6,025 nucleotides of DNA. It comes from Clostridia bacterium (GTDB taxonomy: Bacteria > Bacillota_A > Clostridia > Oscillospirales > CAG-272). Shown here one piece after another: positions 1-5,734 of the stretch. The stretch spans positions 1 to 6,025 of the forward strand of contig JAFZCF010000053.1 in assembly GCA_017552165.1 (NCBI GenBank). Direction: 5' to 3'. Positions within the stretch are counted from its first letter, which is position 1. Every line of letters starts with the position of its first letter. Both the position numbers and the translations under genes were made by a program. Under the pieces are notes generated by a model, which worked only from the letters and a program-made list of their open reading frames with translations, had not been told where the DNA came from and made no database searches.

Positions 1-1011
1 GTTCTCCCGAACGTCGATCTCTCCGCCCCGTGGTGGAATACCCAGGGAAACAGCACCTTCAAAATCAGGGATATCCAGTTCGCCGCGACGGGCGATTTCA
101 GTCTTTCACACTACAACAAGATCTACTGTTTCATATACAACAAGGATCTTTACGCCAACGTTGATACCGGGTACGATCTTTACGAACTGGTGAGAAAACA
201 CGACTGGACGATTGAACGTCTCTATGAGATCGCCAGGCCGTTCAATCAGAATCTTGACGGCGACATAAATACCGTTTCCGACGACGACGGACACGGGATA
301 GTCGCGACGTCAAAGGTCCTTTTCTCGCTGCTGCTCAACGGCTCGGGCGTCAAGATCATCCAGAGCGATAAAAACGGCGACCCGTATTTCGCGCTCGACG
401 GAAGGCGCCAGACCGACGTCCTGCAGAGGATAGTCGAGGTGAATATCGGCGACGGCGGATATTTCCGCAACGTAGAGCAGGCAAACGGTGCGCTGGAGCT
501 CGGCACGTACGCAAAGGGCAACACCCTCTTCTACGCCTGCATACTGAGCGGCGTCGGCAGCACCCCGGATTATAATTTTGAGACCGGCTTCATGCCCGCT
601 CCCCTCTACGACTCGACGCAGGAAAACTATCACTCCGTTTCCATAGGCGGCAACGTGATGGTAGTCCCCGCGACCCTCGAAAAGAGCCGCAGGGAAGACG
701 TCTCGACGCTGCTTGAATATATGTCCTATCTGTCGCGCGACACCGTCGTGAAGGAATACGTTCAGACGTATCTCAAGACGAGACTTGCCGACGAGAACGA
801 CGCCGAGATGATACAACTCATGTTCGACACCGTCGATTACGATCTCGCGAACAACCTTTTCGCAAAGGGCGCGAGACTCGCGGTAAACGCGAACGTTTTC
901 CATCCGCTCGTCACGAGTTTCGCTTCTATCCTCGAGGGTATAAAGACGGATCTCGAGAACACAATCGGGACAACTCTCGAAAACATCGATAAAATAACGG
1001 AAAACAAGTGA
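1..1011 (+). CDS. ABC transporter extracellular solute-binding protein, C-terminal part (5' end outside window)
   Basis: The frame is open from base 1 to the TGA at 1009-1011, giving 336 visible residues. The signal peptide, lipobox and start lie upstream of the window, so an ATG further inside should not be taken as the start. The protein resembles clostridial family 1/8 solute-binding lipoproteins, usually 450-550 residues. Visible hallmarks are a PWWN motif near visible residues 10-13, a YNKDLY segment, a following DLYELVRKHDWTIERLYEIA stretch (the usual 'plan the next domain' region of these proteins), an FMPAPLYD..QENYH segment and a late LADENDAEMIQLMFDT-like helix. Such proteins capture a solute, often a sugar, outside the membrane and hand it to an ABC permease. 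No permease or ATPase gene is visible here, so the substrate cannot be assigned. The family call is fairly secure; the substrate is unknown. No convincing intrinsic terminator follows, and the next gene has its own promoter. Confidence 0.82.
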   Translation, partial: VLPNVDLSAPWWNTQGNSTFKIRDIQFAATGDFSLSHYNKIYCFIYNKDLYANVDTGYDLYELVRKHDWTIERLYEIARPFNQNLDGDINTVSDDDGHGIVATSKVLFSLLLNGSGVKIIQSDKNGDPYFALDGRRQTDVLQRIVEVNIGDGGYFRNVEQANGALELGTYAKGNTLFYACILSGVGSTPDYNFETGFMPAPLYDSTQENYHSVSIGGNVMVVPATLEKSRREDVSTLLEYMSYLSRDTVVKEYVQTYLKTRLADENDAEMIQLMFDTVDYDLANNLFAKGARLAVNANVFHPLVTSFASILEGIKTDLENTIGTTLENIDKITENK

Positions 1012-1169: not shown

Positions 1170-1832
1170 ATGAAATCATTTAAAAAGTATCTGGCGGAGT
1201 TTATCGGCACTTTTGTTCTTGTGCTGTTCGCCTGCGGAGCGGCTGTAGTCACGCAGTGCTCCACGTCAAATTTTGCCGGCTACCTTTTGACGGCGCTCGC
1301 GTTCGGGCTTGTCATCGTCGCGATGGCATATTCGATAGGCAACGTCTCGGGCTGCCACATCAATCCGGCGGTCAGTCTCGCGATGCTTATAAGCAAGAAG
1401 CTCTCGCTTGTTGACTTCGTCGGTTACGTCATCGCGCAGTTCGCCGGCGCCACGGCGGGCGCGGCGCTGCTCTGGGGACTTCTCGGGAGCAACGAAAATC
1501 TCGGGCAGAACGGCCTTTACAACGGGAACGTATGGCTCTCGCTGCTCGTTGAGGTCGTGCTCACCTTCGTCTTCGTCCTCGCAATCCTCGGCGTGACGTC
1601 AAAGACAGAGAACAGCGCGGTCGCCGGGATCGTTATCGGCCTCACCCTGACGCTCGTTCACATCTTCGGCATTTATTTCACCGGCACGTCGGTCAACCCG
1701 GCGCGCAGCTTCGGCCCCGCGCTCTTTGCCGGCGGCGAGGCGCTCGCGAACGTGTGGGTATTCATCGTCGCTCCCCTCTGCGGAGGCGCGCTCGCGGCGG
1801 TATGCCACAAACTGCTTTCTGACAAGAAATAA
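1170..1832 (+). CDS. Aquaporin, AqpZ-type water channel (MIP family)
   Basis: This 220-residue integral membrane protein is close to the usual length of bacterial aquaporins. It has the MIP inverted-repeat fold: six membrane helices (about residues 9-29, 35-57, 80-103, 121-142, 151-170, 193-215) and two half-helices carrying NPA motifs at 65-67 and 176-178. The residues expected at the aromatic/arginine filter of E. coli AqpZ are all present: Phe45, His164, Thr173 and Arg179. Ser180 follows that Arg, where glycerol facilitators carry Asp. The protein should therefore pass water rather than glycerol. The ATG at 1170 is chosen because AAGGAG lies 6 nt upstream and the AEFIGTF start of helix 1 follows at once. 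It is a single-gene unit with its own promoter and a strong terminator. An osmotic role is likely from the family; the physiological trigger is unknown. Confidence 0.93.
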   Translation: MKSFKKYLAEFIGTFVLVLFACGAAVVTQCSTSNFAGYLLTALAFGLVIVAMAYSIGNVSGCHINPAVSLAMLISKKLSLVDFVGYVIAQFAGATAGAALLWGLLGSNENLGQNGLYNGNVWLSLLVEVVLTFVFVLAILGVTSKTENSAVAGIVIGLTLTLVHIFGIYFTGTSVNPARSFGPALFAGGEALANVWVFIVAPLCGGALAAVCHKLLSDKK

Positions 1833-1904: not shown

Positions 1905-1934
1905 TTGACACATACGCCCGGGATATGGTATAAT
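1905..1934 (+). promoter_or_regulatory. Consensus extended -10 promoter of the channel operon
   Basis: TTGACA (1905-1910) and TATAAT (1929-1934) both match the sigma-A consensus exactly, with an 18-bp spacer. A TGG immediately before the -10 (1926-1928) provides the extended -10 TGn element. Transcription would start near 1941, giving a leader of about 80 nt. Such a strong promoter suggests that control may act after initiation, which fits the unusual leader downstream. Confidence 0.93.
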
Positions 1935-1972
1935 ACGAAAAATCTGATTTATTTACAGTATAAACTGCTGAT

Positions 1973-2020
1973 AAGGAGGTCACCGGCAGATCCGCGCAGA
2001 CGCGCTCTGCCGACACGCTC
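1973..2020 (+). promoter_or_regulatory. Remote Shine-Dalgarno with intervening hairpin (possible structure-bridged RBS)
   Basis: AAGGAGGT (1973-1980) is an almost perfect Shine-Dalgarno, but the next ATG is at 2021, 40 nt away. No ATG, GTG or TTG lies between them in any frame, and no purine-rich SD lies close to 2021. The gap folds into a hairpin. CGGCAGA (1984-1990) pairs with TCTGCCG (2006-2012); after a 3-nt bulge (1991-1993), GCGC (1994-1997) pairs with GCGC (2002-2005) around the loop AGAC. When folded, only 3 nt before and 8 nt after the stem separate SD and start, about 11 nt in all. Phage T4 genes 25 and 38 are known cases of this arrangement. The pairing is seen; the translational effect is inferred. 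Confidence 0.68.
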
Positions 2021-3862
2021 ATGGAAAAGAAAAAGAAAGGCCCGCTTCGCGACCGAATGAGATACTGGTTTGACAACCGCATCTCAAAGAGCTCACTCGG
2101 GCTTATCCGGGCCCTCATAATCGCATCTCTGATCCTCGCGCTCGCCGTCGCCGCCCTCATCATCCTTTTCGGGTTCAACGACGAGGGAGAGGTCGCCTCG
2201 GTTTTCTGGGACAGTATCGCGACGGTCATAAACGCCTGGATGCCGTCATACGAGGACGGGAGCATCGGATATCTTATCCTCATGTCCGTGACCGCCGTGG
2301 CCGGGCTGCTCTTTACGAGCGTCCTCATCGGTATCGTCACGAGCGCCATTGAGGAGAAGATAATCGAGCTGAAAAAAGGCAATTCGCTTGTGCTCGAGAG
2401 CGGCCATATCGTGATGCTCGGCTTTGATCCCGGTGAGTACACGCTTCTCAGTCAGCTTATTCTCGCTGCGGAGGACAAGCCCTGCCGGATCGTCATAGCC
2501 GAGGACATGGACAGGGAAGAGATGGAGCAGCACATAAAAGAGAACTTAGTCCTCCCTAAAAACGTGAAAATAATATGCAGGACGGCCGACATAACGTCAC
2601 CGCAGTCGATCGCAAAGTGCTCGATAGAAACGGCGCGGATGGTGATCGTGAATCCCGGAGACGACCTGACGGTCACAAAGGCCGTGCTCGCCGTCGTCGC
2701 GCTTCTTAAAGAAAAGAAAGCGGACGGCGTTCCGATAAACGCGATACTGTCTCAGGGGGATTACCGTCTCCCCGAATCGCTTGTAAAGGCGCACAACATA
2801 TCGATATTCAGGACGCACGACGTCATGGCCAAGATAATCGCCCACTCGTGCACTCAGATAGGTCTCTGCGAGACCTTCCGCGAGGCGTTCAATTTCGAGG
2901 GGTCGGAGTTCTATCTCGCCGACATTCCCGAGGCGGCGGGCGAGACCTTCGGCGAGGTCTCGGTGCGCCTTAATCACGGCGTCGCCGTCGGCATCAGCCG
3001 CGACGGTGACGTGACGCTCAATCCCGCCGCGGACGAGGTGATCCGCCAGAGCGACAGGATACTCGTTTTCTCAACGGACAGCGACGACATGAAGCTCGAG
3101 CCGCCGCGCGATATATCCCCGGAATCCGACGCTCCCCTGCCTGACGCCGATAGCGGCCCCGGAATGGAGGTCATGATCATAGGCAGGAACGAGTCGCTCC
3201 CGACAGTCCTGCGCGAATTGCCGTCGAACGTCACGAAAGCGGTGCTGGTAGGCCCGGAGCCGCCGGAGGAAGAAAAGCAAAAAGACGCCGGCGCAGCCGC
3301 CGGCCGCGGGCTCGAGCTGGTTTATTCCGGTCTCGATCCTGAAGACGGTGATGACGCCGCCGAAATCGCAAAAGAGGCGGAGCACATCGTGATACTCTGC
3401 GACCACGAGCTGCCGGAGGACGAGGCGGATATGAAGACGGCGTTCCTGCTGATGAACTTCCGCGAGCTGAGGACGATATACGGTCTGTCCTTCAACATCA
3501 CGGTGGAGATGCAGAAGGAATCCAACCAGAAGCTCGTCGGTATCGGAAGCGAGACCGACTTCCTCGTCACGTCGAGCATGGGCTCGACGATCCTCGCCCA
3601 GCTTTCGGAAAATCCCGAGCTCCTCGGGGTGTTCCGCGAGATTTTGTCGAACGAGGGCAACGAGTTCTATCTGAAAAACGCCGGCTCGGCCGGTCTCTGC
3701 GGGACGTCGTCGGTACGTGATCTCCGCCGCCGCATGACGGCGGGCGGGTTCGTGTTGCTCGGCTTCCTGAACGCCGAGCGCGTGAGCAGATTCCTGCTCG
3801 AGCCCGACGAGGAGATAACCCTCACCCCGGACGACGATCTCATAGTCATAGGCGCGGACTGA
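2021..3862 (+). CDS. CASTOR/POLLUX-like putative ion channel with two RCK modules (first paralog)
   Basis: This 613-residue protein has the architecture of bacterial CASTOR/POLLUX-related channels. A basic N-terminus contains the family-typical RYWFDN (14-19). TM1 spans about 29-50, a pore-loop-like region about 61-80 (W63, PSYEDG 75-80), and TM2 about 84-106. RCK module 1 starts near 128, with a degenerate dinucleotide-binding loop (LGFDPGEY, 133-140) and the conserved VIAEDMDREEME segment (158-169). It ends in a TrkA-C-like part from EFYL (296-299). A Pro/Asp/Glu-rich linker (about 360-381) leads to RCK module 2 (382-613), with EM at 496-497, TDFLVTS (512-518) and a second EFYL (548-551). 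The RCK parts should be cytosolic and ligand-sensing. No TVGYG potassium filter and no plant ADAGNHA filter is present, so ion selectivity cannot be read. ATG 2021 is preferred over the in-frame ATG at 2057: neither has a near SD, but 2021 matches the N-terminus of the paralog at 3917. The two genes probably form one operon. Family call strong; ion and ligand unknown. Confidence 0.87.
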   Translation: MEKKKKGPLRDRMRYWFDNRISKSSLGLIRALIIASLILALAVAALIILFGFNDEGEVASVFWDSIATVINAWMPSYEDGSIGYLILMSVTAVAGLLFTSVLIGIVTSAIEEKIIELKKGNSLVLESGHIVMLGFDPGEYTLLSQLILAAEDKPCRIVIAEDMDREEMEQHIKENLVLPKNVKIICRTADITSPQSIAKCSIETARMVIVNPGDDLTVTKAVLAVVALLKEKKADGVPINAILSQGDYRLPESLVKAHNISIFRTHDVMAKIIAHSCTQIGLCETFREAFNFEGSEFYLADIPEAAGETFGEVSVRLNHGVAVGISRDGDVTLNPAADEVIRQSDRILVFSTDSDDMKLEPPRDISPESDAPLPDADSGPGMEVMIIGRNESLPTVLRELPSNVTKAVLVGPEPPEEEKQKDAGAAAGRGLELVYSGLDPEDGDDAAEIAKEAEHIVILCDHELPEDEADMKTAFLLMNFRELRTIYGLSFNITVEMQKESNQKLVGIGSETDFLVTSSMGSTILAQLSENPELLGVFREILSNEGNEFYLKNAGSAGLCGTSSVRDLRRRMTAGGFVLLGFLNAERVSRFLLEPDEEITLTPDDDLIVIGAD

Positions 3863-3883
3863 CGTCCCGAAACAGTTGATTTC

Positions 3884-3901
3884 CGGGCGGAAAGCCGCCC
3901 G
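3884..3901 (+). promoter_or_regulatory. Hairpin in the channel-operon intergenic gap, next to the second gene's SD
   Basis: CGGGCGG (3884-3890) pairs with CCGCCCG (3895-3901) around an AAAG loop: a 7-bp, almost pure GC stem ending 2 nt before the Shine-Dalgarno AAAGGAG (3904-3910). No T-tract follows, so it is not an intrinsic terminator. No promoter is visible in the 54-nt gap. The stem could mark a processing or stability site, or tune translation of the second gene. An alternative weaker pairing, 3866-3872 with 3880-3887 (one bulge), competes for the same G's. Confidence 0.5.
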
Positions 3902-3916
3902 TCAAAGGAGAAAAAT

Positions 3917-5734
3917 ATGAGCAAAACTCCGATAGGAAAAAAGATCCGTTACTGGCTGGACAGGCGCATGGCGAAGGGAACGGCGAGCATGGTCAAGCTC
4001 CTTCTGCTCGCCGTGCTGTTTATGGTCGTGCTCGTCACGGTCCTCGTGATAGTATTCAAGCTCAACGGGTCTGATAAAAACCCGATAGCCCTTTTGTGGG
4101 ACAATATGCGCTCTGCGATGTCGTCGTCGTTCCCGGCGTCGGACTCGGGGCCGCTCCTCTATATCATTCTTTACACCCTCATCGGGCTGACCGGAATGAT
4201 CTTCACCGGTATGCTTATCGGTATCTTTTCGACCTCAATGCGCGGCAAGATCCTTGCCCTTCAGAAGGACAATCCAGAGGTAATCGAAGAGAATCACACC
4301 GTGATCCTCGGCTTCCGTCGCGGAGAATACGCCCTGCTCGACCAGATGATGCAGGCGGCGGGCGGCGAAAAGCGCACGATCGTCATCGTTGAAAACGTAG
4401 AGCGCCAGGATATGGAGCAGATGATCCGCACGAACATCCGCATCCCGAAAAAGATACGCATGATAGTGATAAAGGCGGACACGACGAGCGCCGCCGGCCT
4501 CGTGTGCTGTACCATACCGAGGTGCTCGACGGTCGTCATCAACACGCGTGACAAGGGGCGCACGGTAAAGACCCTCCTCGCCGTCGAAAAACTGCTCGCC
4601 GGCGCCGAGCGGCGGCCGCGCATAGTGACTGCGGTGGACACCGACGAGTCGCTTTTCCCCGACGAGCTGCTCCGCAGCCGTCAGGTCTCGATGCTTCATT
4701 CCGGTAATATAGCGGCGAGGATAGTCGCTCACGCGGCGACTCAGCCGGGCATTTTCGACGCGTTCATGGATATGCTCGACTTCGAGAATTACGAGTTCTA
4801 TTTCGAGGACAGACCCGAGTGGAGCGGGCTTCCCTTCGGCAAGGCGGTCATAAACGCCGAGAACGGGGTCGTCGTCGGGCTTTACCGCGGCGACGACGTT
4901 CTGCTGAATCCCCCGGCCGGGACGATAATTGAGCGCGGCGACCTTATGGTCGTGTTCGAGGAAAACCCGGGCGACCTCAGATTTATCGAGAACGCCGCCG
5001 AAATGCCCGAGGCAAAAACGCCTCCCGCCGCCGAGAAGATACCCGAGGTCGTTATTTTCGGCGTCAACTCGGCGATCTGCACGGTCATCAAAGAACTGCC
5101 GGACAATATCGAACGTATAAGGTTCATAGGCATCCGCCAGAGCGAGTACGCGGCGGGCGTTTCGGACAAGATATCCGTGTCGTCCGAGCTTATCCCCGAT
5201 TACCGTGACTCCGAATCCGTCGGGATCCTCGCCGAGATGGTTCGCGCCGCCTCCCACGTCGTGATCCTTTCCGACAGAGGGAAGAACGAGGAGGCCGCCG
5301 ACACCGAGACTATGATACGCATAATCCGCCTCCGCAACATCAAAAAGAAATACGGTCTCGACTTCTCCATAACGGCGGAAATGCGCTGTGAGAACAACCG
5401 CAGACTTATAGTCCGCGACGTCACCGACGACTTCATCGTGGCGTCAGACCTTTCGTCAATGATGCTCGCGCAGGTGACGGAGGATACGAGGCGTCTGCCC
5501 CTCTTCAGGGAGCTTCTCGACGAAAACGGATCGGAGCTTTACCTCAAGCCCGCGTCCGCCCTTGAGCTCGGCGGGATGGAGATCAGCGTCAGTGATCTGC
5601 GGAGCAGAGTCTATGCGTACGGCTATATTCTTCTCGGGCTCAGGACCGACGCCGATCCGTTCATGGTACTTGACGACCACAAGGACGTCACCCTCGGCGC
5701 GTCCGACCGTCTTATACTCCTTGGAAAGGAATGA
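3917..5734 (+). CDS. CASTOR/POLLUX-like putative ion channel with two RCK modules (second paralog)
   Basis: This 605-residue protein is a diverged paralog of its upstream neighbour and aligns with it end to end. It shows the family N-terminus IRYWLDRRMAKGT (10-22), TM1 about 25-47, a pore-loop-like region about 57-79 (W61, PASDSG 73-78) and TM2 about 81-104. RCK module 1 begins at 127 (HTVILGFRRGEY), has VIVENVERQDME (156-167) and ends in an EFYF-led TrkA-C-like part from 293. A linker of about 25 residues leads to RCK module 2 from 377, with DDFIVAS (504-510) and ELYL (540-543). Three cysteines (197, 198, 203) cluster in module 1; the paralog has Cys200 close to the first two. The start is secure: AAAGGAG lies 6 nt upstream of the ATG. 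With a 54-nt gap and no promoter between them, the pair is probably co-transcribed and the proteins may co-assemble. Ion selectivity and gating ligand are unknown. Automatic annotation might call it a TrkA-domain or NAD-binding protein. Confidence 0.87.
   Translation: MSKTPIGKKIRYWLDRRMAKGTASMVKLLLLAVLFMVVLVTVLVIVFKLNGSDKNPIALLWDNMRSAMSSSFPASDSGPLLYIILYTLIGLTGMIFTGMLIGIFSTSMRGKILALQKDNPEVIEENHTVILGFRRGEYALLDQMMQAAGGEKRTIVIVENVERQDMEQMIRTNIRIPKKIRMIVIKADTTSAAGLVCCTIPRCSTVVINTRDKGRTVKTLLAVEKLLAGAERRPRIVTAVDTDESLFPDELLRSRQVSMLHSGNIAARIVAHAATQPGIFDAFMDMLDFENYEFYFEDRPEWSGLPFGKAVINAENGVVVGLYRGDDVLLNPPAGTIIERGDLMVVFEENPGDLRFIENAAEMPEAKTPPAAEKIPEVVIFGVNSAICTVIKELPDNIERIRFIGIRQSEYAAGVSDKISVSSELIPDYRDSESVGILAEMVRAASHVVILSDRGKNEEAADTETMIRIIRLRNIKKKYGLDFSITAEMRCENNRRLIVRDVTDDFIVASDLSSMMLAQVTEDTRRLPLFRELLDENGSELYLKPASALELGGMEISVSDLRSRVYAYGYILLGLRTDADPFMVLDDHKDVTLGASDRLILLGKE

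Follow-up and report, generated by a model that had tools for sequence, protein, structure and literature searches.

A probable hairpin-bridged ribosome-binding site in the leader of a clostridial CASTOR/POLLUX-like channel gene, and a parallel element upstream of dpaA

Introduction

How can a gene be translated when its only SD sequence lies 40 nt upstream of its only usable start codon? This question is raised by a stretch of 6025 nucleotides of Clostridia DNA (the window), in which such an arrangement precedes the first of two CASTOR/POLLUX-like channel genes. A first-pass annotation of the window proposed that the gap folds into a stem which would bring the SD and the ATG close together, and that the element may act as a switch. 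The question matters for start-site prediction, which assumes an SD 5–10 nt from the start, an assumption defeated by a hairpin that absorbs a gap of 20–50 nt. The proven bridged sites described in the accessible part of PMC3014915 both belong to phage genes.

The leader of channel gene 1

The features discussed below are collected in Table 1. Channel genes 1 and 2 (2021–5734) form a tandem pair with 34% identity, and channel 1 has sequence matches to the solved CASTOR and DMI1 structures. No second channel gene was found in the available flanks (some of them short) of 80 channel relatives, and no viral relative of the channel was confirmed using tblastn with viral contigs. Among 391 sampled genomes of a single class, the closest match of the aquaporin (75%) was in genome G599. 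For channel 2 there was an 84% relative (P0122) in a different metagenome-assembled genome of Clostridia, indicating that a sister species exists.

Both promoter hexamers of channel 1 agree with the consensus (12 of 12 positions), a TG precedes the TATAAT, and transcription would start near 1941, giving a predicted leader of ~80 nt. The first-pass annotation was right about the full consensus; its suggestion that this fits control after transcription initiation does not follow from consensus alone. Pairing of the distal SD with the anti-SD was calculated at −13.4 kcal/mol, compared with 0.0 for the best site near the ATG, and no second SD closer to ATG 2021 was found in the leader. The frame is open from the stop codon TAA at 1961, and none of the 19 in-frame codons in between is ATG, GTG, TTG, CTG, ATT, ATC or ATA, ATG 2021 being the first in-frame start. 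A near-cognate or leader-peptide start was rejected, with none in frame and only CTG in any frame of 1941–2020. Met1 was invariant in 26 aligned channel proteins, whose starts are themselves predicted. The aquaporin and channel 2 genes have ordinary SDs ~6 nt from their ATGs. Thus the description from which this work started, a distant SD with a sole usable start beside genes of normal 6-nt spacing, proved correct in each element and its position, with no nearer SD or start.

Table 1 Features of the window and an example dpaA leader
Feature	Position	Strand	Details
Solute-binding-protein-like gene, 3′ end	1–1011		Weak match below cut-off
Aquaporin gene	1170–1832		
Sigma-70-type promoter	1905–1934	+	TTGACA 1905–1910, 18-bp spacer, TATAAT 1929–1934
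Possible upstream hairpin	1945–1982	+	Would involve most of the SD; not significant
SD	1973–1980	+	AAGGAGGT; 40 nt before ATG 2021
Bridge hairpin, 5′ arm	1984–1990	+	CGGCAGA
Bulge between outer and inner stems	1991–1993	+	3 nt
Inner stem	1994–2005	+	GCGC 1994–1997/GCGC 2002–2005, AGAC loop
Bridge hairpin, 3′ arm	2006–2012	+	TCTGCCG
Residual spacer	2013–2020	+	8 nt to ATG
Channel gene 1	2021–3862	+	CASTOR/POLLUX-like, PF06241, 613 aa
Channel gene 2	3917–5734		CASTOR/POLLUX-like, PF06241
Example dpaA leader	L201:2317–2381	−	

A hairpin between the SD and the ATG

Folding of the gap gave an outer stem of seven Watson–Crick pairs with four inner pairs stacking across the bulge, 11 pairs in total. 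Outside the hairpin, 3 nt (1981–1983) and the 8-nt spacer make up a residual gap of 11 nt, confirming the proposal that a stem of up to 11 bp would leave the SD and the ATG ~11 nt apart. The pairs of the outer stem had a probability of at least 0.92 across 25–60 °C in silico, and the inner stem one of 0.73 at 37 °C.

For the 40-nt gap the folding energy was −18.6 kcal/mol compared with a shuffle mean of −10.3, the stability of the gap being equalled by 20 of 5000 dinucleotide shuffles; a 7-bp stem alone was commoner by chance (265 of 5000). Within the GC-rich window, equally stable 40-mers were found at 44 of 1995 positions on the + strand and 33 of 1995 on the − strand, and the longer stretch 1930–2080 showed no excess of structure (z −1.15; 25 of 200 shuffles). 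A further exact copy of the hairpin was absent from the window, where one match carried three mismatches. Copies were likewise absent from the retrieved loci, plasmids, phages and viral contigs, and from 31 genomes belonging to the same order as G599, where one short match lay inside another gene. With no copies in any of these, a repeat or mobile element was rejected.

Relatives of the channel gene

We compared the leader with those of the best 80 of 102 channel relatives found in genome contigs, leaving out three without a usable upstream stretch (L063, L072 and L079). The 77 relatives thus compared were at most 59% identical, and the bridged layout was found in none of them. A near SD was present at −4 kcal/mol or better in 71 of the 77 and at −3 in 76, whereas the window gave +0.4 near the start and −11.2 at 40 nt in the same scan. 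Five of the 76 had weak near SDs (−3.5 to −3.8 kcal/mol), including L045, which has a second ATG after a strong SD; the remaining relative (L044), with a near SD of −2.8, has by eye an in-frame ATG 24 nt upstream with its own SD. The protein collection held a single 99% relative of channel 1, with its N-terminus missing, and the next-best relatives were at most 61% identical among the 120 matches listed. No second leader of channel gene 1 was found in the protein collection or the genome contigs, and a leader shared with channel relatives was rejected. The first-pass annotation had looked to orthologous leaders for conserved pairing, and the relatives, with a near SD in 76 of 77 at no more than 59% identity, went against it. 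These relatives are remote, however, and the T4 gene 25 bridge is, in the accessible part of PMC3014915, itself confined to close T-even phages.

These comparisons bear on the explanation that the structure is incidental, in which a recent insertion or drift would have made the gap, the gene would initiate poorly from an SD-independent start and the hairpin would be a by-product of GC-rich DNA. The single known copy of the leader, the lack of the gap in the 77 remote relatives and the many + strand 40-mers that fold equally well are as expected from such an origin. However, few shuffles of the gap itself fold so stably, the stem starts 3 nt past the SD and stops 8 nt short of the ATG, and the hairpin was not found as a repeat in any of the collections named above; we thus regard an incidental origin as unlikely.

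Structure around the SD and the question of regulation

A second structure involves the SD itself, most of which could pair with the upstream strand 1945–1960 (mean unpaired probability 0.22). The regulated explanation would have either this masking or the folding of the bridge answer a protein, ion, metabolite or temperature, and ion channels would be plausible ion-sensing targets. The masking was not significant, however, since 37 of 500 shuffles equalled it. With heat the upstream hairpin loosens slowly, much of the SD remaining paired even at 50 °C, and the bridge did not melt over the range given above, for which reason a thermosensor was rejected for it. Rfam gave no family for the leader at E values as high as 1, and the two sub-threshold matches found within the window both lie outside it; a riboswitch was rejected, no described aptamer family matching the leader. 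Taken together with the shortness of the leader, these results told against the switch that had been suggested at the outset, and regulation of the element appears improbable.

A parallel element upstream of dpaA

A first survey, covering 1652 ORFs in 2.17 Mb of related DNA, gave 22 start/SD pairs that had a distal SD but lacked a near one. Apart from the window, the bridged candidate judged convincing was L174, a dpaA gene (PF16924) whose best NCBIfam match, a dipicolinate synthase subunit, was below its cut-off. Two others were judged dubious by eye, the gap falling in another ORF (L057) or the start lying within a longer frame (L015).

dpaA (dipicolinate synthase A) was present in 19 of the 21 genomes of the family to which the genome of L174 belongs. 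In all eight genomes whose dpaA is at least 72% identical (L195–L202), GGGAGGA lay 28–51 nt before the start and the gap held a hairpin, with 7–12 pairs, a residual spacing of 7–10 nt and shuffle p-values of 0.017 or less. Across registers the SD stood 23–51 nt upstream in the eight, and a strong near SD was absent, although L196 showed a weak one (−2.8). In six of the eight, the register with the strongest SD pairing, GAGGAGG, has a linear spacing of 23–29 nt and runs into the base of the stem, where between one and three outer pairs may therefore open. Each of the 11 remoter dpaA genes in the family had a near SD, at −6.9 kcal/mol or stronger; among seven further dpaA genes from the order, four had a near SD and three had a start that could not be placed.

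Seven leaders were aligned for covariation analysis, leaving out L195 with its larger hairpin; L196 was misaligned by one column and was counted unchanged. In this alignment 93.7% of the cells were paired and four of the nine pairs had changed on both sides. The covariation score was 0.450 compared with a shuffle mean of 0.317 and was reached by one of 500 shuffles, and all six slid registers scored below the true one. The number of pairs changed on both sides was equalled by 10 of 500 shuffles, and further pair types were not above chance (195 of 500). RNAalifold, unprompted, gave the same nine pairs. Judged from these sequences, the bridge seems to have been preserved during the evolution of dpaA, which is a better lead for follow-up than the channel leader.

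Translation through the gap was considered for these leaders too. A 19-codon ORF spans the gap of L195, so that coupling is possible there; the other leaders share an ATG start (GTG in L196) with gap lengths that differ modulo 3, and a common leader peptide is thus unlikely. Immediately upstream of the element, most of L195–L202 carry CATAnnnTA, which we take to be a sigma-K-like motif. In the dpaA leaders L206, L208 and L209, AACACCTCTC stands ~15 nt before GAGAGGTGTT; the SD of these remoter genes therefore lies inside a perfect inverted repeat, which may mask it.

Frequency of bridged sites

An enlarged survey (2370 ORFs, 2.92 Mb) allowed 256 start/SD pairs to be tested for folding of the gap. 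Ten had p≤0.02 compared with 5.1 expected, an excess of ~2-fold, and those accepted by eye were the window and three dpaA leaders (L174, L254 and L246); L250 is a fourth dpaA leader, unlisted by the survey. L246, L250 and L254 are not independent, because the DNA of G631, G450 and G492 was added after dpaA was known. By eye, L238 was dropped for nested gap repeats and because a further ATG with AGGAGG lies a short way into the frame. L044 was also dropped, as were L156, which has a TTGACA inside the gap, and L073, L253 and L055 for internal starts or helices without a normal residual gap; L154 was removed as a duplicate of L046, and L071 and L179 partly overlap. The small excess and the few pairs accepted indicate that bridged sites are rare.

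When 28 genomes of the order were searched, a covariance model of the dpaA element (R1) recovered the eight dpaA leaders; in 391 genomes of the class it recovered six of these eight, together with five weak matches (E 0.01–0.06) without a bridged ORF. No ORF behind a bridged SD was found at the weak matches L267, L268 and L276–L280, L269–L275 having been left out. R1 gave no match in the window, indicating that the dpaA element is a parallel of the channel element and not a relative.

Proposed mode of initiation

We conclude that the leader of channel 1 is probably a hairpin-bridged (split) ribosome-binding site, a fixed structural spacer rather than a switch. 16S rRNA would pair with AAGGAGGT while the hairpin at 1984–2012 remained folded on the 30S subunit, removing 29 nt from the path, so that the ATG would effectively lie 11 nt from the SD. 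Exposing the SD alone costs 5.2 kcal/mol in silico and the SD plus the start region 6.6 kcal/mol with the hairpin kept, compared with 25.4 kcal/mol for opening everything from the SD to the start, so a ribosome would fare far better by leaving the hairpin intact. These energies, the absence of any alternative SD or start and the covarying parallel in dpaA lend good support to the bridging mechanism of the first-pass annotation. The bridge would set a basal initiation rate and is most likely unregulated; we infer formation of the hairpin on the ribosome, its use in initiation and the absence of regulation.

That the inverted repeat is a DNA operator or the leader an assembly error is highly improbable, since, although the arms lie 22 bp apart centre to centre, which would correspond to two helical turns, and only a single contig has yielded the leader, an operator has no further exact copy within the window and would still leave the SD without a start at normal distance, and the surrounding reading frame and promoter are intact.

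More widely, it seems evenly balanced to us whether bridged ribosome-binding sites are a recurrent, selected initiation route for chromosomal genes of Clostridia, with independent origins in the CASTOR/POLLUX-like channel and in dpaA, where the size of the hairpin varies with the spacing held at 7–10 nt. If so, selection would keep the spacing rather than the sequence, and the channel leader and especially dpaA would be chromosomal cases, testable by simple reporters.

Comparison with known systems

Titles and abstract openings, a coverage that mostly excludes subscription journals, gave no chromosomal case of a bridged ribosome-binding site and no dpaA leader, and the available parts of PMC4631060 and PMC11087576 have no direct bearing on bridged sites. 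In the accessible part of PMC3014915, structure between the SD and the AUG cuts the spacing from 22 to 5 nt in T4 gene 38 and from 27 to 11 nt in T4 gene 25. Channel 1 resembles both in having an over-long gap shortened by RNA structure (from 40 to 11 nt), with a strong distal SD, no near SD and a hairpin leaving ~5–11 nt. The T4 sites belong to a phage and were, in the same source, shown by mutation and probing; channel 1 is bacterial, has a longer gap and carries a predicted site. The dpaA leaders share with channel 1 an SD, a hairpin and a short residual gap; they differ in gene and sequence, and their hairpin has compensatory changes across genomes, whereas channel 1 is one sequence.

RNA thermometers and riboswitches mask or free the SD, and, as in channel 1, the leader is structured around it. 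Unlike these elements, the main hairpin of channel 1 leaves the SD and the AUG free and stayed unmelted in silico. In thrS the hairpin lies upstream of the SD and is part of the operator, whereas that of channel 1 lies between the SD and the AUG and has no known regulator. The split ribosome-binding site of Escherichia coli thrS is nevertheless, in the available part of PMC3936740, one whose folded hairpin the ribosome accommodates without unfolding it, and the tolerance shown there is what we propose for channel 1.
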